Assembly: GCA_020073185.1 (NCBI GenBank)
Contig: JAIQFT010000018.1
Coordinates: forward strand, 1-64,000
Reading direction: 5' to 3'
Length of the DNA stretch: 64,000 nt
Origin: Terriglobia bacterium
GTDB lineage: Bacteria > Acidobacteriota > Terriglobia > Terriglobales > Acidobacteriaceae
Shown: in pieces, positions 36,860 through 53,683 of the stretch
Numbering within the stretch: the stretch's first letter is position 1
Layout: the number at the start of each line of letters is the position of its first letter
Position numbers and translations under genes: made by a program
Notes under the pieces: generated by a model
Told to the model about the DNA's origin: nothing
The model's input: only the letters and a program-made list of their open reading frames with translations
Database searches by the model: none

Positions 36860-37471
36860 TCAGCGCCCATAGCGTCCCATGAGTTCGCCGCGGGCGACGG
36901 AGTGACCCCGCATGGCCCGTTCGAGTTCGCCGCGGCCGGCGCCCGCTTTCAATCCCAGCACCGTGTCCAGCGCATACAAGCGGAAGAAATAGCGGTGAGG
37001 CTTTCCGGGCGGCGGACAGGGGCCGCCGTAGCCCAGTTTGCCGAAGTCATTGCGCCCCTGATTTCCGCCGGCGGGCAATTGCGCGGTCTTGGGCGCATTT
37101 TCCGCCAGTTCGCGCGCCGCGGCGGGAATGTCCCACAGGAGCCAGTGGGTGAAGGTTCCGCCGGGAGCGTCAGGATCGTCAAGGATCACGGCAAACGATT
37201 TGGCGGAGGCGGGTACGTCGCTCCAGGCCAAGTGGGGGGAAATATCCCCACCGTCGCATGTGTTCCGTTTTGGGAATTCGCCGCCGGGGGGAATCATTTT
37301 GCTATTGACCTGCATGGCTGCCTCCGTGTTGGCGGCCGCAGACGCGGCCGCGGGGCGCGCGGAGGATGCTCCGGGACCGCGCCAACCCCTGATTTCATGC
37401 GCCTCCGCCCCAGTCCGCGTGTACACCGCCACGGTGAGCAAGGTCACAAAGAGTATGGACATGGGCCACAT
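36860..37471 (-). CDS. YbhB/YbcL (PEBP, Raf-kinase-inhibitor-like) protein
   Basis: The 203-residue protein has an N-terminal hydrophobic segment (MSILFVTLLTVAVY, signal or anchor), an Ala-rich linker and a PEBP domain (about 55-203) with ISPHLAWSDVPASAKSFAVILDDPDAPGGTFTHWLLWDIP and GPCPPPGKPHRYFFRLYALD, including the DPDAP and GxHRY anion-pocket motifs. Bacterial members are periplasmic or cytoplasmic proteins without a known reaction. It is divergent from the CRP/FNR gene, with a double GAAC-N4-GTTC palindrome between them. Confidence 0.88.
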   Translation of the reverse strand: MWPMSILFVTLLTVAVYTRTGAEAHEIRGWRGPGASSARPAAASAAANTEAAMQVNSKMIPPGGEFPKRNTCDGGDISPHLAWSDVPASAKSFAVILDDPDAPGGTFTHWLLWDIPAAARELAENAPKTAQLPAGGNQGRNDFGKLGYGGPCPPPGKPHRYFFRLYALDTVLGLKAGAGRGELERAMRGHSVARGELMGRYGR

Positions 37472-37566
37472 CGTGGGATCATTTCACCAGAACGTCTCCG
37501 GCTTGCCAAGGGGCGGATGCGTGGCGCAGCGAAGCCAGTGTTTATGAGGGTAGCAGCGGGTTGCGA

Positions 37567-37600
37567 CGAACGCTCGTTCGGCGCACCGAATGAGCGTTCG
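37567..37600. promoter_or_regulatory. 15-bp hairpin made of two GAAC-N4-GTTC-like boxes
   Basis: CGAACGCTCGTTCGG (37567-37581) and CCGAATGAGCGTTCG (37586-37600) pair over 15 positions with one G-T wobble. Each arm is also its own small palindrome (GAAC-GCTC-GTTC; GAAT-GAGC-GTTC), the shape of a Gram-positive LexA box. It lies in the divergent gap between PEBP and CRP/FNR genes, 54 bases ahead of the latter's start codon. Confidence 0.6.
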
Positions 37601-37653
37601 AACGATATTCCTTGACGCCCATCGTAAGATGGAATGTCACAGGGGGTTGTGTC

Positions 37654-38373
37654 GTGTTATCACCTTATGGACTTGACATCATAGAAAGCTGCTTCACCTG
37701 TAAGCTGAGGGCGGACAGAATTTTCTGCGATTTGCCCACAGCCGCCCTGCAATCATTCGAAGCCATTAAATATGCCAGTGCGTATCCGAAGGGCGCCGTG
37801 CTGTTTGTCGAAGGCCAGGCGCCCCGCGGAATCTTTGTTCTCTGCAAAGGGCGGGTGAAGCTCTCCATTTGTTCCACCGACGGAAAAACGCTGATCCTGA
37901 AAATCGCCGAACCGGGCGAAGTCCTCGGGCTCAGCGCCACCGTTTCCGGCAAACCATACGAACTCACGGCGGAGACGATCGATCCCTGCCAGGTGAACTT
38001 CGTCAAGCGCGAGGATTTCCTGCGCTTCCTGCGCGAGCACAGCGAAGCGTGCTTCCGCGTAGCCGAGCAATTGAGCGACAAGTACAACACCGCTTGCCAC
38101 GAAATCCGCTCGCTGGGGCTTTCGCACTCGGCGGCGGAAAAGCTGGCCAAGCTGCTGCTGGAGTGGAGCTCAAAGAACGGGGAAGCGGCCAAGCAGGAGC
38201 CGCGCGTGAAGATGGCGCTCACGCACGAGGAGATCGCACAGATGATCGGCACCTCGCGCGAGACGGTCACGCGGCTGTTCGCCGAACTGAAGAAGCGGCA
38301 GATTGTGCACGCCAAGGGGTCGACGCTGCTGATCCGCAACAAGGCGGCCTTGAAGGCGCTGGCCAGCAGCTAG
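37654..38373 (+). CDS. Crp/Fnr-family transcription factor with N-terminal cysteine motif
   Basis: The 239-residue protein has a cyclic-nucleotide-binding-like sensor domain (about 25-145, including KGAVLFVEGQAPRGIFVLCKGRVKLS and AEPGEVLGLSATVSGKPYELTAETID), a long dimer helix and a winged helix-turn-helix (LTHEEIAQMIGTSRETVTRLFAELKKRQIV). The N-terminus has Cys13-x2-Cys16-x8-Cys25, reminiscent of FNR's cluster ligands but with different spacing; a fourth ligand could be one of the cysteines at LSICSTD or DPCQVN. It may sense oxygen, NO or redox. GTG at 37654 is chosen behind a GGGGG site. Adjacent to the HTH-less paralog and the cytochrome cluster. Confidence 0.9.
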   Translation: MLSPYGLDIIESCFTCKLRADRIFCDLPTAALQSFEAIKYASAYPKGAVLFVEGQAPRGIFVLCKGRVKLSICSTDGKTLILKIAEPGEVLGLSATVSGKPYELTAETIDPCQVNFVKREDFLRFLREHSEACFRVAEQLSDKYNTACHEIRSLGLSHSAAEKLAKLLLEWSSKNGEAAKQEPRVKMALTHEEIAQMIGTSRETVTRLFAELKKRQIVHAKGSTLLIRNKAALKALASS

Positions 38374-38494
38374 GCCGCTGTGCAAGCTTGCCATCGCTCC
38401 GCCGCGCGCCTCCGGATGCAGCGGCGGAGAGACGCTTTATTGTTTTCCCTCGCAACCCCGCCCGGGACGCGCCTCTTGGGTTACGCATCACCAT

Positions 38495-38518
38495 AAACAG
38501 TGATAGGAATCACTGTTT
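38495..38518. promoter_or_regulatory. GTGA-N6-TCAC box upstream of the HTH-less CRP gene
   Basis: AAACAGTGAT-AGGA-ATCACTGTTT, a perfect 10-bp inverted repeat containing GTGA (38500-38503), six bases, TCAC (38510-38513). It lies 33 bases ahead of the start codon, where a CRP/FNR protein could act as repressor or from which it could activate depending on the promoter position. Confidence 0.75.
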
Positions 38519-38550
38519 TGGCTCGCCGCAGCAAGCATCATTCCAGTGTT

Positions 38551-39069
38551 ATGGAGAGCGCAAAGGATCATAGCTGCTTCGCCTGCGAGTTGCGGCCGGA
38601 CCGCGTATTTTGCGATCTTCCCGCCGAAGCGCTGCAGGCATTCGACGCCATCAAGAGCACGACGGTGGTTCCGCGGGGTGCGACGCTGTTTGCCGAAGGC
38701 AAGCAGCCGCGCGGCATTTACGTGTTGTGCGAGGGCCGCGCCAAGCTCTCGGTTTGTGCCGACAGTCGCAAGCGCCTGATGCTGCGCGTGGCCGGGCCGG
38801 GCGAGGTGCTGGGGCTGAGCGCCTGCATGTCGGGCAAGCCGAACGAAGTGACGGCGGAAATGGTGGACACCTCGCAGGTGGCGTTCGTACGGCGCAAGGA
38901 CCTGCTGCACTTCTTGCGCGATCACCGCGTAGCCTGCCTGCAGGTCGTGCACCTGCTGAGCCAGGACCTGCACCAGGCTTACGACCGGGTGAGGTCGATC
39001 GGGCTGGCGCGCGCGCGCCGTCCGCACCCGCTGCACTTGTCCGCGCATGCCGCGGAGCACAGCAACTGA
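38551..39069 (+). CDS. CRP/FNR-like sensor protein lacking the DNA-binding domain
   Basis: The 172-residue protein is colinear with the sensor part of its upstream neighbour (SCFACELRPDRVFCDLP; TLFAEGKQPRGIYVLCEGRAKLS; GPGEVLGLSACMSGKPNEVTAEMVD) and with the start of the dimer helix, then ends RARRPHPLHLSAHAAEHSN. No helix-turn-helix follows in any frame before the terminator at 39089. Cys9-x2-Cys12-x8-Cys21 is kept. It cannot bind DNA as a homodimer in the normal way. It may form heterodimers with the full-length paralog, titrate a signal, or be decaying; good codon structure and a strong promoter palindrome argue for use. Confidence 0.85.
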   Translation: MESAKDHSCFACELRPDRVFCDLPAEALQAFDAIKSTTVVPRGATLFAEGKQPRGIYVLCEGRAKLSVCADSRKRLMLRVAGPGEVLGLSACMSGKPNEVTAEMVDTSQVAFVRRKDLLHFLRDHRVACLQVVHLLSQDLHQAYDRVRSIGLARARRPHPLHLSAHAAEHSN

Positions 39070-39088
39070 CAAGTTAGCATTGCGCAAG

Positions 39089-39112
39089 CGCCCGCTGCGG
39101 CGGGCGTTTTTT
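39089..39112 (+). terminator. Rho-independent terminator after the HTH-less CRP gene
   Basis: Stem CGCCCGC/GCGGGCG with a 4-base loop is followed by TTTTTT. It sits 20 bases after the stop codon and separates the regulator from the cytochrome operon. Confidence 0.88.
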
Positions 39113-39181
39113 CCTGCCTGGAAGGGCGGGGAGAGTTTTGCACAGAAGCAGCCGGAAAGCGCAAAGCACGTCACCGAGCTA

Positions 39182-39197
39182 TGTGAGCGATCTCACA
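39182..39197. promoter_or_regulatory. CRP-type palindrome upstream of the decaheme gene
   Basis: TGTGAGCGATCTCACA is an exact match to the TGTGA-N6-TCACA form of a CRP site, 89 bases ahead of the decaheme start codon. Confidence 0.75.
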
Positions 39198-39285
39198 GCC
39201 TCTCCGCCCATGGATATCCGATGCTACCTGTGCCGTCCGGGGTCCGATGCGGATCCGCCCCGGTTCTGCCTAGGAGCTAATAGCA

Positions 39286-40305
39286 ATGAACGAATTCAAA
39301 AATCATAAGCGGTTCGCGATCTCCCTGGCCGCTGTGATGCTGGTCATGCTCGTGGTGGCCGGCGTCAGCGTCGCCGGCGAGCTGCCCAAGGCGGCTCCCG
39401 CCCCGGCCGCCGACAGCGACTACGTCGGCAGCGATACCTGCATTACATGCCATGATGATCAAAACCGCCGCTTCAAGAATACTGTGATGGGGAAAGCTTT
39501 TGCGAATCCCCACACAGCCGACGAAAAACTTGGATGCGAGTCTTGCCACGGACCCGGCAAGGCTCACGTGGAAGCCGGCGGCGGCAAGGACACCATCCCC
39601 ATCACTTATGGCAAAGACACCAAGACCTCAGTCGAGGAACAGAACCAGTCTTGCGCGCAGTGCCACAAGAGAGGCAACCGCATGTTCTGGGCCGGCAGCC
39701 CGCACGAATCGCGTGGTATGCGGTGCGTCGACTGCCACCAGGTCAAGCAGCAGCTAAAAAGGTCCTTGAGCGGCGAGGCATTCTTGACGGAGCCGCTGAA
39801 GGACACCGGAGGTCTAGTCAAGCCCGAGACCGAGCTCTGCCTGCAGTGCCACCAGATGCGGCGCGCGCAACTGCAGCGCTCTTCGCACATGCCGTTCCGG
39901 GAAGGCAAGGTTACTTGCACGAGCTGCCACAACCCGCACGGTTCGCCCAATCCGGCGCAACTGAAACAGGCCACCGTGAACGAGAACTGCTATAGCTGCC
40001 ATGCCGAGCGGCGCGGCCCCTTCCTGTGGGCGCATCAGCCGGTGACGGAAAACTGCGACTCCTGCCACGAGCCGCATGGTTCCTTCAATCCGCAGTTGCT
40101 GAAAGCGCGCATTCCGCGGCTCTGCCAAGAGTGCCACAACGAATTCGCGCACGGGACGGGCACCATCGGCTACCCCCTGGGTAACGTCTCCGCCAAGGGC
40201 CAGCCCATGGGCTATCCCAACAAGACCTTGAACCGTGGCTGTGCGAACTGCCACTCCAAAATCCACGGGACCAACGCCCCGTCGGGTACGTTCTTCCTGC
40301 GCTAG
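39286..40305 (+). CDS. Periplasmic decaheme cytochrome c, DmsE/MtrA type
   Basis: The 339-residue precursor has a signal peptide (AAVMLVMLVVAGVSVAG) and ten CxxCH motifs (CITCH, CESCH, CAQCH, CVDCH, CLQCH, CTSCH, CYSCH, CDSCH, CQECH, CANCH). Size, number and spacing (paired hemes, CHNPHGSPNPAQL and CHEPHGSFNPQLL blocks) match the DmsE/MtrA/PioA family, which sits inside an MtrB-type barrel as a heme wire through the outer membrane. The next gene, 18 bases on, is such a barrel. Direction of flow (metal or mineral reduction versus external donor oxidation) is not visible. Confidence 0.93.
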   Translation: MNEFKNHKRFAISLAAVMLVMLVVAGVSVAGELPKAAPAPAADSDYVGSDTCITCHDDQNRRFKNTVMGKAFANPHTADEKLGCESCHGPGKAHVEAGGGKDTIPITYGKDTKTSVEEQNQSCAQCHKRGNRMFWAGSPHESRGMRCVDCHQVKQQLKRSLSGEAFLTEPLKDTGGLVKPETELCLQCHQMRRAQLQRSSHMPFREGKVTCTSCHNPHGSPNPAQLKQATVNENCYSCHAERRGPFLWAHQPVTENCDSCHEPHGSFNPQLLKARIPRLCQECHNEFAHGTGTIGYPLGNVSAKGQPMGYPNKTLNRGCANCHSKIHGTNAPSGTFFLR

Positions 40306-40323
40306 GAAAAAGGAGAGAGAGCA

Positions 40324-42999
40324 ATGAAAATATTCAAGCTGTTTGCGCTTTGTACACTGCTCGCGCTCCTGCTTGTTCCGGCGGCGGTTTTCGCCCAGGA
40401 ACAGGCGGCTCCCGAGCGCGGCGTCGTGGAGTTTGGCTTCCGCGGGGTTACGGGCGAGGTTTACGGTCGCACTTTCCCTGCATCAACGGCGTTACCCGGA
40501 TCAACCTTCAGTCCCGATGTGTTGAACTCCGGCCTTAACACTTATCAGGATCACAGAAGCGGCTTCTACATTCCGAAGTTCAACGCCTTACTGGACGGCA
40601 TTTTCGGCTCCAACAACTACCTCCGGATTCAGTCGGCCAGCAACGGCTTTGCCTTTGAGGGCGGAGGAAGTCTGACTCGAGATCAGAGCGTACTGGTTAC
40701 GTTTGGTCAATACGGACATTACAAGATGCAATTCCGCTTTGACGAAACGCCGCACATCTTCAGCGGCACCACGCGTACGCTGTTCAGCAGTAACGGCGCG
40801 GGCGGGTGGACGCTGCCTGCGGGCGTGCAATCCACCACGTATGCCTGCCTCAACGGAACACCAAACGCCGGCGGGATAACGGGATGCCCGATTACGAATC
40901 AAATGTTTGCGGGCTTTACCACGAGCGCCGCTAATAGCGCTATCAGAACCAACGGCACCATATCGAGCTTGGTGGCCGGCGGCCTGGTAGCAGGCGTGGA
41001 TGCGCAACCGTTTACCCAGCAGGAGAGCCGGAAAGCACTTACCGGTTCGATGAGCTGGAACATCACACCCGACGTGAACGTGAACGCCTTGTTCTCGCGG
41101 GAGCACCAACTCGGCACGCGGCCGATTGGCTTCGTGATGGGCAACGGCTCGACCGGCTATGCGGCCGAGGCGCCGGAGTCGATCGACTACTACACCAACA
41201 ATGTGAAGATCGCCACCGAGTTCGGCCGGAAGAACTGGGACGCATCGCTGGGATACCAGGGGTCGTTCTTCCAGAACGACACTCCCAGCATGGTGGTGGA
41301 GAACCCGTTCTCGACCGTGTACAACAACACGACGGTGGGACCCGCCACGGGACGGATGGACCTGTACCCGGACAATAAGTACCAGCAGTTTGTGGGCCAG
41401 GGTGCAGTCCAGATTGGCAAACACATCAGCTTGATGGCGAATGTCACCCCTGGGTGGATGTCGCAGAATGCGAATTTTCAGCCTCTGACGACCAACACTT
41501 ATGTGAACTTAACTCCAGATCCTGGTTACCCCGCTTTCCTGCCGGCGCAGAGTCTGAACGGCAAGGTGGACACGCTGGCCATGAACTACACCGCGGTATT
41601 GAAGGCAACGAAAGACCTGAAATTCGTAGCCAAGTACCAGCATTACAAGTACGACGACGGCACTCCGGAAATGCTGGTCAGGCCGGTCATAGCCGATACG
41701 GCATTCCTGACCAGCTTCCACGGTGCGACAGCCTGGTTTGACCCGCTGCATCCAGCGGAGAGCCAGCTCGCTGCCGCTACCAATTCACCAACGGTCGCGA
41801 ACTATAGATACTATGCCCCCTCCGAACACAGCTCGTTCACGACCAGGCTGTTCGATATCGGCGGTACATGGTTCTTTACCAAGAAGAACTCGGTGAAGTT
41901 CGGCTACCAGCGGGGCTGGACCGACCGCACCCAACGCGAGGTTGCCGAGAGCATCGAGGACTCGGTATACGCTGCCCTCGACATGCGCCTGCGCAAGGAT
42001 CTGACGTTCCGGGTTTCGGGGCGTCACCAGAACCGCGTGCCGCAGGAGTACGAGATCGACACAAGCAACTACTATTCCCGCATGTTGGATCAATCGTCAC
42101 GCGTTCGTAACCGCGGCGATGTGTCGCTGCAGTGGGATGCCACTCAGAAGCTGAGCCTCTCGGCCTTCTGGGGAACGTTGCAGGACAACTACAACCAGCG
42201 CGGCGGAGTCAACAGCCCGGTGCCGCTCGGCGACGCCACGTATAGCGCAGGGACCGGCGTTCCGACACCGATCTATGGACCGTATTACGCCTACGGGTTG
42301 CTGACCAACGTGGGGCGCAACTACGGCGTGGATGTCAATTACGCGCTCACTCCAAAGGTCGTGCTGTTCGCGGAGTATGCGCGTGAGAAGAACACCGGCA
42401 TCATGATCGAGGGCAGGGGACTCAACACCCCCGCAACCTGTACACCCACGGGGGCCGGCTTCGTTTATCCGAGTTCCTGCGACCCAATCAACGACCTGCT
42501 GACCGCTCCCAAGGATGTGGTCAACAGCTATTATGGCGGAGTGGATGTCACTGCCTCCAAGAAGCTCGACTTCAGCCTGTATTACAGCTTGTCGCTGGCG
42601 CAGAGCTTCAATTTTAGCGATGGCGTGAACTGCCAGATCGGCAACGGCTGGACCACAGGGACCTCCCGTTGCGACACGCAATTCACTAACTGGAGCCTGG
42701 ATCAGGCTGCCTATCCTGCCGTGAATTTCGGTTATCCGCAGAACGTCAACCGGATTCATGAGGTGGGCGTCGTTACCAGGTTCAAGCTGACGGATAGCCT
42801 AGTACCGAAGTTCCAGTACGTGTTCCGGCAGTTCGCCAACAACGATTGGCAGACCGGCGCTGTGAATCCTTACAGCTTTGCCGGGACTACCGCTGACTCG
42901 GGCGGCGCGACTGCGTTGCAGAAGATGCTGTTCCTGGGCGCGGATCAGCCGTCGTACCGGGCGCACGTCTTCACGGCTACGCTGGAGTACCACTTCTAG
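40324..42999 (+). CDS. MtrB/PioB-family outer-membrane beta-barrel
   Basis: The 891-residue precursor has a signal peptide (LFALCTLLALLLVPAAVFAQ) and then a long series of alternating polar/nonpolar strands, ending in the terminal aromatic (ATLEYHF) used by the BAM complex, so a very large porin. Strand wording (DRTQREVAESIEDSVYAALDMRLRKDLTFRVSGRHQNRVPQEYEID) matches MtrB/PioB proteins. It should sheathe the decaheme protein. The N-terminal CxxC seen in Shewanella MtrB is absent; cysteines occur only as loop pairs (TYACLN/GCPIT; ATCTPTG/SSCDP). It ends in a strong terminator. Confidence 0.9.
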   Translation: MKIFKLFALCTLLALLLVPAAVFAQEQAAPERGVVEFGFRGVTGEVYGRTFPASTALPGSTFSPDVLNSGLNTYQDHRSGFYIPKFNALLDGIFGSNNYLRIQSASNGFAFEGGGSLTRDQSVLVTFGQYGHYKMQFRFDETPHIFSGTTRTLFSSNGAGGWTLPAGVQSTTYACLNGTPNAGGITGCPITNQMFAGFTTSAANSAIRTNGTISSLVAGGLVAGVDAQPFTQQESRKALTGSMSWNITPDVNVNALFSREHQLGTRPIGFVMGNGSTGYAAEAPESIDYYTNNVKIATEFGRKNWDASLGYQGSFFQNDTPSMVVENPFSTVYNNTTVGPATGRMDLYPDNKYQQFVGQGAVQIGKHISLMANVTPGWMSQNANFQPLTTNTYVNLTPDPGYPAFLPAQSLNGKVDTLAMNYTAVLKATKDLKFVAKYQHYKYDDGTPEMLVRPVIADTAFLTSFHGATAWFDPLHPAESQLAAATNSPTVANYRYYAPSEHSSFTTRLFDIGGTWFFTKKNSVKFGYQRGWTDRTQREVAESIEDSVYAALDMRLRKDLTFRVSGRHQNRVPQEYEIDTSNYYSRMLDQSSRVRNRGDVSLQWDATQKLSLSAFWGTLQDNYNQRGGVNSPVPLGDATYSAGTGVPTPIYGPYYAYGLLTNVGRNYGVDVNYALTPKVVLFAEYAREKNTGIMIEGRGLNTPATCTPTGAGFVYPSSCDPINDLLTAPKDVVNSYYGGVDVTASKKLDFSLYYSLSLAQSFNFSDGVNCQIGNGWTTGTSRCDTQFTNWSLDQAAYPAVNFGYPQNVNRIHEVGVVTRFKLTDSLVPKFQYVFRQFANNDWQTGAVNPYSFAGTTADSGGATALQKMLFLGADQPSYRAHVFTATLEYHF

Positions 43000-43315: not shown

Positions 43316-45340
43316 ATGAAGGTATCGCGACAAACCGGCGGCCGCAGGCGCACCTTGCCGGGGCTGTTGTTGTTGACCACGGTCTTACTCGCCGCCGGCG
43401 TGGCCGCGCGCGCGGCGGAAGACCCGAACGAAACCTGTTTTGCCTGCCACAGCGACAGGACGCTCACCACCAAGCGCGCTGGGCGTACCGTGTCGCTCTA
43501 CGTGGAAGCCAAGAGGTTCCAGGGTTCCATCCACGGCTCGCTGCCCTGCACCAGTTGCCACGCCGACCTGGAAGGCAAGGAGCTGCCGCACGAGACGCCG
43601 CTGAAGCGTGTGGACTGCGGTACCTGCCATGGCGAGGAGGCCAAGCAGCACGCCCGGTCGCTGCATGGACGGGCGGTGGCGCGCGGAGACGCGCTGGCGC
43701 CGCGCTGCGTCAACTGCCACGGAAACCACGACATCCTTTCGGTCAAAGACCCGCGCTCGCCAGTGTCGCCGTTGCAGGTGCCGTTTACCTGCGGCAAGTG
43801 CCATCGCGAGGGCACGCCGGTGCAGACGCAGCGCAAGATCGAGCAGCACAACATCATAGAGAATTATGCGGAGAGCATGCACGGCGAGGCCCTGCTGAAG
43901 AAGGGCCTGGTGGTGGCGGCGAACTGCGCGTCGTGCCACACGGCGCACAACATCCTGCCGCATACCGATCCCAACTCCTCGATTGCGCGCGCCAACATCG
44001 CCAAGACCTGCACCAAGTGCCACGCCCAGATCGAGGCGGTGCATCGCAAGACGATCAAGGGCGAGCTGTGGGAGAAAGAGGCGCACGTGCTGCCGGCGTG
44101 CGTCGATTGCCACCAGCCGCACAAGGTGCGCAAGGTCTTCTACACCCAGGGCATGGCCGACGCCGACTGCATGCGCTGCCACGGCAACGCGAATCTGAAG
44201 TCGCACGACGGCCGATCGCTGGCGGTGAATGCCGCCGAGGTGGCGTCATCGCGTCACGCCAAGGTGGCTTGCAGCCAGTGCCATTCCGAGGTCAACGCCT
44301 CGCGTGTGCGCCCCTGTGAAACCATCACGTCGGCGGTGGACTGCTCGAAATGCCACGAGCAGATCGGGCAGGACTACCAGCGCAGCCTGCACGGGCAGCT
44401 GTTCGCCAAGAAAGACCCCAATGCGCCCGTCTGCAAGGAATGCCACGGCACGCATAAGGTGCTGGGAAAGCATGATCCCCAGTCGGTGACCTTCGCCACC
44501 AACGTGCCCACGCTTTGCGCTCGTTGCCATCGCGAAGGCAAGAGGGCGGCGGTGCGCTACACCGGAGTGCAGCACGAGATCATCCCGCACTATCAGGAGA
44601 GCATCCACGGCAAGGGCCTGCTGAAGAGCGGGCTGACAGTGACGGCCACCTGCACCAGTTGCCACACCGCGCACCGCGAACTGCCGAAGTCGGACCCTGA
44701 GTCCACGGTCAATCCGAAAAACTTGCCCGCGACCTGCGGCCAGTGCCACCACGGCATCCAGGAGCAGTTCGTCAACAGCGTGCACTCGCGCACCGTAACC
44801 AGCACCAAGGAAGAGCTGCCGGTGTGCAGCGACTGCCACAGCGCGCACCAGATCCGGCGCGCCGACGAAGACGGCTTCAAACTCGACATTATGGCCAAGT
44901 GCGGCCGCTGCCACGCCGAGATCGCGAAAACCTACTTCGACACTTATCACGGCAAAGTGTCGCGGCTGGGCTACACCAAGACGGCCAAGTGCTACGACTG
45001 CCACGGTGCGCACGACATCCTCAAGGTCACCGACCCGCGCTCGCACCTGAGCCGCGCCAACGTAGTGGAGACCTGCCGCAAGTGCCACGCCGATGCGACG
45101 CGGCGCTTCGCCGGGTATCTGACGCACGCCACGCACCACGATCCGAAGAAGTACCCGTTCCTGTTCTGGACGTTCTGGGGCATGACGTCGCTGCTGGTCG
45201 GGACTTTCATCGCCGGGGGCGTGCACACGCTGTTGTGGCTGCCGCGCGCGTTCCAGATGCGGGCCGAACTGCGCGCCGAGGAGGCCAAGGAAGCGGCCGA
45301 ACTAAAAGGGCGAGAGGAGAAGCGCGATGGCGACCGTTAA
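43316..45340 (+). CDS. 19-heme cytochrome c with C-terminal membrane anchor
   Basis: The 674-residue precursor has a signal peptide (LLLLTTVLLAAGVAARA), 19 CxxCH motifs spread from about residue 41 to 595, and one C-terminal membrane helix (FLFWTFWGMTSLLVGTFIAGGVHTLLW) with a charged cytoplasmic tail. The motifs sit in repeated modules of the form SxHG...CxxCHxxHxI...DPxS...CxxCH, and two long stretches (about 85-240 and 335-510) are internal duplicates. It should be a periplasmic heme wire fixed to the inner membrane. It overlaps the b-type cytochrome gene by 14 bases. Confidence 0.92.
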   Translation: MKVSRQTGGRRRTLPGLLLLTTVLLAAGVAARAAEDPNETCFACHSDRTLTTKRAGRTVSLYVEAKRFQGSIHGSLPCTSCHADLEGKELPHETPLKRVDCGTCHGEEAKQHARSLHGRAVARGDALAPRCVNCHGNHDILSVKDPRSPVSPLQVPFTCGKCHREGTPVQTQRKIEQHNIIENYAESMHGEALLKKGLVVAANCASCHTAHNILPHTDPNSSIARANIAKTCTKCHAQIEAVHRKTIKGELWEKEAHVLPACVDCHQPHKVRKVFYTQGMADADCMRCHGNANLKSHDGRSLAVNAAEVASSRHAKVACSQCHSEVNASRVRPCETITSAVDCSKCHEQIGQDYQRSLHGQLFAKKDPNAPVCKECHGTHKVLGKHDPQSVTFATNVPTLCARCHREGKRAAVRYTGVQHEIIPHYQESIHGKGLLKSGLTVTATCTSCHTAHRELPKSDPESTVNPKNLPATCGQCHHGIQEQFVNSVHSRTVTSTKEELPVCSDCHSAHQIRRADEDGFKLDIMAKCGRCHAEIAKTYFDTYHGKVSRLGYTKTAKCYDCHGAHDILKVTDPRSHLSRANVVETCRKCHADATRRFAGYLTHATHHDPKKYPFLFWTFWGMTSLLVGTFIAGGVHTLLWLPRAFQMRAELRAEEAKEAAELKGREEKRDGDR

Positions 45341-51875: not shown

Positions 51876-52046
51876 TTTTCTACGGCCGGGAGATCGTGCT
51901 GGTAAGCATCGTCAACCAGCGAGCCGCGGCACGATCTCCCGCAAGAACAGGGTACGGCGCCTGCAGCGGCAGTGGGGCCGCGCGCGCGACTAAAGTCACA
52001 GCCTGGAGTGAGGTTGGCGGCTAACCTTCATCACGACGTTTACGAT

Positions 52047-52901
52047 ATGGCGACGTTCCCTGCCACAGTCAAGCCCGCTCCCGTCGGCAAGGCGCGCATG
52101 CGCGCGCTGGTGATCCCACGCGAGCACGGCGCCTGGGGCCTGCTGCTGATCCCACTGATCACGGGCGCATGTGCGGGACTGGCGGTGCAGCGGAACTGGC
52201 TCTCGCTGGCGCTGTTCACCGTCGCGGCTCTGGCCTTGTTCTGGATACGCACCCCGGTGGAGAGCGCGCTGGGCACGTCGCCGATGCGAGCCCAGTCGGT
52301 GGCAGAGACCAATTGGCTGCTGCTGGCGATCGCGGTACTGGGCTCGACCGCCATGGCCTGTACTACCGTTCTGCTTTTGGAAGGCGACGATCGACTGCTG
52401 GTGCTGGGCGCGGCCGCCGCACTGGCCTTTATCGCGCAAGCGGCGGTGAAAAAGCTGGGACGCGGCGCGCGCATGGCGTCGCAACTCATCGGATCCATCG
52501 GGCTCACGCTCACCGCGCCCGCCGCCTGGTACGTTGTCACCCAACGGCTCGACACGACCGCGCTGGGCTTGTGGCTGGTCAACTGGATTTTCGCCGGCAA
52601 CCAGATCCATTTTGTCCAACTGCGCATTCACGCGGCACGCGCCGCGACTCGGCAGGAAAAGGTTCGTCGCGGACGTGGGTTCCTAATCGGCCAATTTGCC
52701 ATGAGCGCCGCGCTCTTGGCGGCCTGGCGCTTACACCTGGTGCCCGCTCTGGCGCTGCTGGCGTTTGTTCCGCTGCTGGTGCGTGGCTTGCTGTGGTTCA
52801 AAGCCGGTGCAAGGCCGCTTGTGGTCAAGCGCCTCGGATGGACAGAACTGGTGCACGGAGTAAGCTTCGGTTTGCTGCTCGTCACGGCATATCTCCTGTA
52901 G
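52047..52901 (+). CDS. YwiC-like integral membrane protein
   Basis: The 284-residue protein has about eight membrane helices and the YwiC signature PREHGAWGLLLIPLITGAC near its N-terminus. The family is related in layout to UbiA-type prenyltransferases and, in Bacillus, ywiC is beside narK and fnr; here too it lies next to a CRP/FNR gene. Function unproven. ATG at 52047 chosen; the ATG at 52098 directly before PREHG is an alternative. Confidence 0.78.
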   Translation: MATFPATVKPAPVGKARMRALVIPREHGAWGLLLIPLITGACAGLAVQRNWLSLALFTVAALALFWIRTPVESALGTSPMRAQSVAETNWLLLAIAVLGSTAMACTTVLLLEGDDRLLVLGAAAALAFIAQAAVKKLGRGARMASQLIGSIGLTLTAPAAWYVVTQRLDTTALGLWLVNWIFAGNQIHFVQLRIHAARAATRQEKVRRGRGFLIGQFAMSAALLAAWRLHLVPALALLAFVPLLVRGLLWFKAGARPLVVKRLGWTELVHGVSFGLLLVTAYLL

Positions 52902-52978
52902 GGATCCCTCCTTTATCCGTATTTTGCAGACGTGGGTCCGGACTGACGCGCGCCGCCGGGCCGCGTACAATACCGCCA

Positions 52979-53683
52979 ATGCCGACAACCCAAGCCACCG
53001 CAGCCGAGGTTCTGCGCCGCGTGCCGCTTTTCGCCGACCTCTCGGAAACGGAAATCAAGTTCCTCGCCGCGCGCGCTGTCCCGCGCCGCTACGCGCCCGG
53101 CGAACTGGTGTTTGCCGAAGGCGACGCCTGCCCGGGGCTGTTTGTCATCGAGAGCGGCGCCGTCCGCCTGTTCAAGAGCTCGCCCGGGGGACGGGAGCAG
53201 GTGCTCGCCATCGAGAAGTCTGGCAATTCCATCGCCGAGTTGCCCGTTTTTGACGGCGGAAACTATCCCGCCTCCGCCACGGCGATGGACGAAGCGCAGC
53301 TCTTGTTCGTCAGCAAACAGGATTTTCACTCCCTCTGCCTGGTTCACCCCAAAGTCGCGCTCAAGGTATTGCGCGTGGTGGGCAACCGGCTGCGACGGCT
53401 GGTTAACATCATTGAAGAGCTGTCGTTCACCACCATCCGCTCGCGCCTGATCTCGCTCTTGCTGCGCCTGGCCCGCGAGCAGGCCCCCGGCGCCACCGCC
53501 AACGTGCAGATCGCACTGCCCGCCAGCAACCAGGAACTGGCGGCACATATTGGCACCGTGCGCGAGCTGGTGTCGCGCAATATCAGCCGGCTGCAGGCTG
53601 AGGGACTCATCGAGGTAGACGGCCGCACCGTCACCATTCCCAAGCTTGCTGTACTGCGGAACCAGCTCGAAACCGGCGAGTAG
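52979..53683 (+). CDS. Crp/Fnr-family regulator (no N-terminal cysteine motif)
   Basis: The 234-residue protein has the cyclic-nucleotide-binding sensor domain (LRRVPLFADLSETEIKFLAARAVPRRYAPGELVFAEGD; GLFVIESGAVRLFKSSPGGREQVLAI), a dimer helix and a C-terminal winged helix (LPASNQELAAHIGTVRELVSRNISRLQAEGLIEVDGR). It lacks the Cys-x2-Cys-x8-Cys of the regulators at 37-39 kb, so it senses by another route, as in Dnr/NnrR-type (heme) or CRP types. The ATG at 52979 is the proper family start; a longer frame from 52169 overlaps the YwiC gene. Between YwiC-like and RIC genes. Confidence 0.9.
   Translation: MPTTQATAAEVLRRVPLFADLSETEIKFLAARAVPRRYAPGELVFAEGDACPGLFVIESGAVRLFKSSPGGREQVLAIEKSGNSIAELPVFDGGNYPASATAMDEAQLLFVSKQDFHSLCLVHPKVALKVLRVVGNRLRRLVNIIEELSFTTIRSRLISLLLRLAREQAPGATANVQIALPASNQELAAHIGTVRELVSRNISRLQAEGLIEVDGRTVTIPKLAVLRNQLETGE

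Follow-up and report, generated by a model that had tools for sequence, protein, structure and literature searches.

A Crp/Fnr paralog without a DNA-binding domain, encoded beside its full-length relative and behind a conserved Crp-type operator in a family of Acidobacteriota

The stretch of DNA that was analysed (64 kb, hereafter the window) belongs to a 4.66 Mb genome assembled in 121 contigs and carries two neighbouring genes of the Crp/Fnr type, here called F (product of 37654-38373) and S (product of 38551-39069), with 177 nt between the end of F and the start of S. The features of these two genes are the following.

37654..38373, forward strand: F, full-length Crp/Fnr regulator with a CRP-type recognition helix (SRETVTR), from Pfam and alignment
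38495..38518, no strand assigned: operator, perfect inverted repeat with the core GTGA-N6-TCAC (38500-38513), its centre 44.5 nt before the S ATG
38536..38541, forward strand: -10-like hexamer CATCAT, inferred from the class II expectation, in which case the transcript would begin about 3 nt upstream of the ATG
38551..39069, forward strand: S, Crp/Fnr paralog of 172 aa without a helix-turn-helix (HTH); PF00027 only, AlphaFold2 pLDDT 81
38575..38613, forward strand: N-terminal C-x2-C-x8-C motif, residues 9-21, from alignment
38926..39015, forward strand: C-helix, the predicted dimerisation helix, residues 126-155; AlphaFold2, low dN in genus pairs
39010..39021, forward strand: RxRR cluster, residues 154-157, occupying the place of the hinge that leads to the HTH in F
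39086..39109, forward strand: inverted repeat resembling an intrinsic terminator, 3' of S, from the sequence

Pfam searches identified PF00027, HTH_Crp_2 and Crp in F, all above their cut-offs, whereas PF00027 was the sole domain of S (56.1 bits against a cut-off of 27.5), confirming the preliminary description of a truncated sensor that adjoins its full-length paralog. S aligns with the N-terminal part of its neighbour, as had been described, with 56% identity across S residues 7-153, and the terminator that had been placed at 39089 corresponds to the terminator-like repeat at the end of the gene. No NCBIfam model reached its own cut-off with S, and an Rfam search of positions 37000-40500 gave nothing at the gathering threshold.

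An AlphaFold2 model of S, built with 16 S sequences (mean pLDDT 81), consists of a beta-roll and a continuous helix from residue 126 to 155, with low confidence for residues 1-15 and 162-172. Its best Foldseek matches were CAP/CRP/GlxR-type proteins, with Thermus CAP at the top (E 2e-11). S therefore has the N-terminal beta-roll of the Crp/Fnr superfamily, resembling a cNMP-binding domain, and the long C-helix, which is kept across the S proteins and whose dimerising role is predicted, but not the C-terminal HTH, which is present in F. The model of F was poor (pLDDT 54) and was left unused.

In an alignment with E. coli CRP, R202, E203 and R207 of F fall in the columns of the residues that we take to read GTGA in CRP, and this recognition helix, or a close variant, was found in 33 of 33 F rows and in 27 of 28 paralog rows. 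The five residues that we take to be the cAMP contacts of CRP (E72, R82, S83, T127 and S128, mature numbering) are absent from both S and F. The nucleotide-binding-like core proposed earlier is thus upheld as a PF00027 fold but not in its E. coli CRP cAMP contacts. In an alignment with E. coli FNR, whose C20, C23, C29 and C122 are presumably the cluster ligands, the columns of C20 and C23 hold Cys in both S and F, the C29 column holds Arg, with a Cys three residues further on, and at the C122 column S has Ala whereas F has Asn, so that S does not have all four cluster cysteines of an FNR-type [4Fe-4S] sensor. Cys 112 of F, considered as an equivalent of FNR C122, was dropped because the FNR alignment places it three residues before that column. 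Cys 112 and Cys 148 are each kept in 31 of 33 F rows; among 34 S rows, the first of these columns holds Ser in 16, Ala in 11, Val in 4, Gly in 2 and Cys in 1, and the second Tyr in 32 and Phe in 2. The likeness to E. coli CRP and FNR lies in the fold and C-helix of S and in the CRP-type recognition residues of F; the differences are the missing DNA-binding domain of S, the absent cAMP contacts and the unmatched FNR cysteine set.

Among 200 genomes sampled from the family to which the host belongs (Acidobacteriota), at least 45 carry a truncated S gene: at least 43 S genes were among the matches listed, and two more were found beside F. The resulting set of 45 loci (the window, L041-L055 and L097-L125) comes from one family and includes close relatives, so that its members are not independent. 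Forty-one S rows were aligned, 37 of them non-redundant (less than 90% identity to each other). Orthologs with 92, 86 and 83% identity occur in three genus mates, and others in further genera of the family; the named relatives that a search with the S alignment brought up are for the most part Terriglobia/Acidobacteria MAGs. These orthologs, which the preliminary description had proposed to look for, lack the HTH in the same way, and the truncation of S belongs to a family-wide ortholog set and is not a local accident. A scan of genome contigs yielded 36 loci, of which 24 were read as S-type, and a class-wide scan of 299 genomes (E <= 1e-50), a threshold at which a diverged S outside the family could be missed, gave non-family matches that were all full length, with open frames of at least 257 codons.

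F lies immediately 5' of S, on the same strand, at 41 of the 45 loci. The four S genes without an adjacent F are found in two genomes of high completeness (G014, 99%; G017, 97%) and in two of 74% or less (G143 and G094). In a tree of 31 S, 19 F and 25 paralog rows, from which the long-branch S rows L052, L054 and L055 and the rows labelled X were left out, S formed a single clade (support 99/96). In a preceding tree, which contained hardly any paralogs, two long S rows (L051 and L054) fell outside the S group, and because of them S needed three changes. S is an old, selected paralog of F whose DNA-binding domain was lost, apparently in a single event, and which has since mostly been passed on along with F.

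Related genes occur in other arrangements as well. Three full-length relatives have no S with them (L126-L128), and at another locus (L060 8216-9016, genome G031) multihaem genes come after an F ortholog (85%) and S is missing from between, which makes this a natural case of F without S. The genome that carries S also codes for another short cNMP-domain protein without an HTH (L059 8095-8643, G000:C24), which measures 162 aa from its ATG and has no Cys motif; similar short proteins were seen in other members of the family (L056, L057 and L132), with non-uniform site spacing. The window also contains a 552-codon frame (52025-53680) whose C-terminal half is Crp/Fnr-like (26% identity to F), preceded by a long N-terminal part.

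A search for remnants of the HTH beyond S was made by tblastn with the F DNA-binding domain at the 45 loci, covering 90 nt before to at most 600 nt after the S stop (308 nt after it at L108 and 81 nt at L125). Four matches at chance level were obtained, the best with E 0.19, and a control search recovered the domain from all 41 F genes. No HTH was found in the S reading frame at any of the 45 S loci or the 24 S-type scan loci. The absence of a remnant in other frames, claimed earlier for this one gene, thus extends to the 45 loci, and orthologs that retain an HTH were not encountered in either set.

Among four genus members (six pairs), dN/dS was 0.10-0.17 for S, below one as had been anticipated, and 0.01-0.04 for F; S is under purifying selection. 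Within S, the C-helix had a dN of 0-0.03 with a dS of 0.18-0.49 in the six pairs, and the tail (residues 156-172) a dN of 0.15-0.44, which in one pair exceeded dS (0.21 against 0.18). The Pro/His/Ala-rich tail to which attention had been drawn is present in the S of the window but is genus-specific; the feature kept across the family is the RxRR cluster after the C-helix. The only sign of decay was an in-frame stop after 102 codons in the S gene of genome G210, near a contig end (81 nt left; L080 and L125 are the same contig), and the decay considered in the preliminary description is not seen across the family. The S rows L123 and L124 are interrupted by runs of N, which were not taken for decay. 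Local deletion, frameshift or decay was rejected for the family on the basis of the orthologs, dN/dS and the downstream HTH search. A dinucleotide run before the tail was considered as the site of a frameshift slip and rejected as well, since family members that differ in sequence at this point stop at nearly the same position.

The best-kept parts of S are the C-helix and the RxRR end. Conservation along the C-helix is periodic (37 rows, permutation p 0.0005 with a single angle grid; 0.0006 if the row that reaches a run of N is omitted), and across these rows the mean entropy was 0.69 at ten CRP-like interface positions, equivalent to those of the CRP dimer interface, against 1.54 at 12 others. 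C129 is kept in 36 of 37 rows, the exception (L124) being the one that runs into N. In the RxRR cluster, R154 is kept in 32, R156 in 35 and R157 in 27 of the 37 non-redundant rows. The N-terminal triplet C9/C12/C21 is complete in 29 of 37 rows and incomplete in the other eight; the Cys motif, said earlier to be kept, is so in this S and in those 29 rows, but Cys 112 and Cys 148 of F are replaced. The C-helices of the two proteins differ at fixed positions, at which F has K143, Y144, N145, C148 and E150 and S has D139, L140, H141, Y144 and R146, so that S could equally be insulated from F and pair with itself. Charge reversals between the helices were considered as proof of heterodimers and rejected, because the geometry of a parallel coiled coil does not require the positions concerned to face each other.

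The palindrome that had been noticed before S is real, with perfect 10-nt arms (38495-38504 and 38509-38518), and its GTGA-N6-TCAC core is kept upstream of S in relatives. In 44 of the 45 S genes, with start codons assigned by rule in 42 genes and by eye in three, this site is no further than 63 nt upstream of the ATG, and in 40 it begins between -47 and -52; the outlier is L052, at -118, and four genes (L054, L110, L112 and L122) have it at -62 or -63. Markov shuffles of the same upstream regions gave an expectation of 0.08 in 42 with a site. The F genes are less uniform, with a site within 260 nt in 20 of 41. The commonest start, -48 (18 of 42), means that the centre of the site is 41.5 nt away from the A of the start codon, on its 5' side. 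A centre at -41.5 is the textbook class II position, from which we infer Crp-type activation and an mRNA with a leader of 0-5 nt. TATCA or TATTA can be read about 12 nt before the ATG in many S rows. Shine-Dalgarno-like words precede S in 6 of 37 rows with sites at -48 to -52 and in 10 of 42 overall, against a background of 19%, and F in 18 of 41; Shine-Dalgarno enrichment is absent before S. Judged by its layout, the S promoter would be class II, Crp-activated and near-leaderless, which fits the CRP-type recognition helix of F; since this helix is common to the paralogs, the activator could be a sister regulator instead of F.

At several loci (L070, L073, L100, L101, L105, L106, L109, L123 and L125), a second GTGA-N6-TCAC lies exactly 22 nt, or about two helical turns, upstream of the first. 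Before F, a near-perfect inverted repeat that is not of the GTGA type is found at 37567-37600 (15-nt arms, 93%, 4 nt apart).

Ten GTGA-N6-TCAC sites occur in the window (36748, 37434, 38500, 39183, 43132, 43172, 43194, 50551, 50573 and 62861), against 0.72 expected and a maximum of three in 100 shuffles. They outline a dense putative Crp-type regulon, with several sites around cytochrome genes.

37434..37447, no strand assigned: GTGA-N6-TCAC, beginning 220 nt before the F start and located inside the 5' part of an opposite-strand ORF
39182..39197, no strand assigned: perfect TGTGA-N6-TCACA before the decaheme cytochrome gene (core from 39183)
39286..40305, forward strand: decaheme c-type cytochrome of the DmsE family, in a likely target operon (TIGR03508, 256 bits, cut-off 192)
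40324..42999, forward strand: MtrB/PioB-type outer-membrane porin (PF11854, 222 bits, cut-off 23)
43316..45340, forward strand: multihaem cytochrome, with the sites 43132, 43172 and 43194 in front

Against NCBIfam TIGR03509, the porin scored 189 bits, below the cut-off of 240. Together, a DmsE-type decaheme cytochrome and an MtrB/PioB porin probably conduct electrons through the outer membrane. At 10 of 16 loci with wider context, S is followed by a decaheme cytochrome gene that belongs to one cluster, and all ten of these loci have a further GTGA-N6-TCAC 3' of S.

Taken together, these observations can be accommodated in a mechanism in which F, or else a sister regulator that shares its recognition helix, would bind the GTGA-N6-TCAC operator and switch on S from a class II promoter, giving a near-leaderless mRNA. 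Because S retains the beta-roll and the whole dimerisation helix, it would most likely pair with F subunits through that helix. A mixed S:F dimer would have one DNA-binding domain only and could not hold the palindrome, so that S would damp the regulon of F. S would then serve as a negative-feedback brake on this regulon, the adjacent decaheme cytochrome/MtrB porin operon included, under whatever signal the pair may sense. We favour this reading of S as an F-induced feedback brake acting by DNA-binding-defective mixed dimers, although we put its chances slightly short of even. The conserved Crp-type operator strengthens the dominant-negative interpretation, for which heterodimers are predicted, and the finding that a DNA-blind copy has a conserved control site of its own suggests a built-in brake or a partner for a switch. 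The preliminary interpretation is borne out in part: the shared truncation and a dN/dS below one agree with it, and its ligand-buffer and redox-adaptor readings do not fare as well.

The main rival, given that the F and S helices differ at fixed positions and that F is missing next to four S genes, is that S works on its own as a sensor or adaptor, forms homodimers and docks by its RxRR end on another protein, such as a sensor kinase, RNA polymerase or a cytochrome maturation factor, and would be an output of the regulon, not its brake. The re-specified C-helix, the strongly kept RxRR cluster and the four loci, out of 45, at which S persists though F does not adjoin it speak for it, and by general helix geometry D139 and Y144, both specific to S, could pair with each other in such a dimer. 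Against it stand the linkage to F at the 41 other loci and the observation that no other gene was as constant in the 16 loci with wider context, the decaheme cluster included; we consider it rather unlikely. Mixed S:F dimers might also be altered and not dead, binding a half-site with the aid of the basic RxRR cluster and redirecting F to other promoters. The cluster does stand where the hinge leading to the DNA-binding domain would begin, but Crp/Fnr proteins normally need both HTHs for DNA binding, which makes this possibility improbable. Marginally less probable again is that S is a redox or ligand buffer holding the cofactor of F: C9, C12 and C21 are all kept in most rows, but the incomplete triplet in the eight others weakens the redox-adaptor proposal, Cys 112 and Cys 148 of F are not kept in S, and the ligand-buffer proposal finds no support in proteins from which the CRP cAMP contacts are absent. 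That S is a pseudogene, a local deletion or an assembly error is hardly credible and already contradicted for the family, for its faster evolution than F, the single pair in which tail dN exceeds dS and the stop in G210 are set against a clade that is deep, a domain under purifying selection and an operator whose spacing is conserved.

Truncated regulators are known from other systems. TrlR of Agrobacterium, a truncated TraR, reportedly blocks its full-length relative through inactive dimers; it resembles S as a truncated regulator and differs in belonging to the LuxR family and in being, it is said, plasmid-borne. CerN of Cereibacter sphaeroides is an HTH-less LuxR relative that weakens DNA binding by CerM when AHL is present (PMC11655674). 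Like S, it is an HTH-less relative of transcription factors, and it antagonises a full-length partner, as S is only predicted to do; CerN differs in being AHL-dependent and of the LuxR, not the Crp/Fnr, family. By sequence, S does not belong to the CerN/TrlR type of antagonists. Another case is CrpR1a of Riemerella anatipestifer, an HTH-less CRP-type protein with a disordered end and a phenotype on deletion; most strains have the short form, with the HTH encoded by a small ORF that overlaps it downstream, and other strains have an in-frame HTH (PMC13277301). S shares with CrpR1a the CRP-type protein without an HTH but differs in having no downstream HTH, in an overlapping ORF or elsewhere within the up to 600 nt covered at the 45 loci, and in the full-length paralog that adjoins it in 41. 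The earlier remark that no named family exists for such a protein was thus nearly right, although CrpR1a is a published HTH-less CRP with a tested phenotype (PMC13277301). Searches of an open-access library turned up no account of the acidobacterial S/F pair. HTH-less LuxR antagonists and one HTH-less CRP are already known; the S/F pair in Acidobacteriota and the conservation of the operator upstream of S are new here.

The Crp/Fnr proteins rank with the most common regulators of bacteria, and those described in textbooks work by means of an HTH. Our findings lead us to propose, more tentatively than the brake itself, that this lineage has a dedicated anti-Crp/Fnr subunit, a DNA-blind sibling induced by F that would form inactive heterodimers and cap an extracellular-electron-transfer regulon. 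If true, this would be, according to the literature found, the first Crp/Fnr counterpart of the Id/CerN-type inhibitors in the form of a family-wide conserved gene pair. S with its own Crp-type promoter would imply a layer of control at the protein level, one that is easily missed because no NCBIfam model reaches its cut-off. The control of a cytochrome/porin operon in soil Acidobacteria that are hard to grow would thereby become testable in a simple E. coli reporter.
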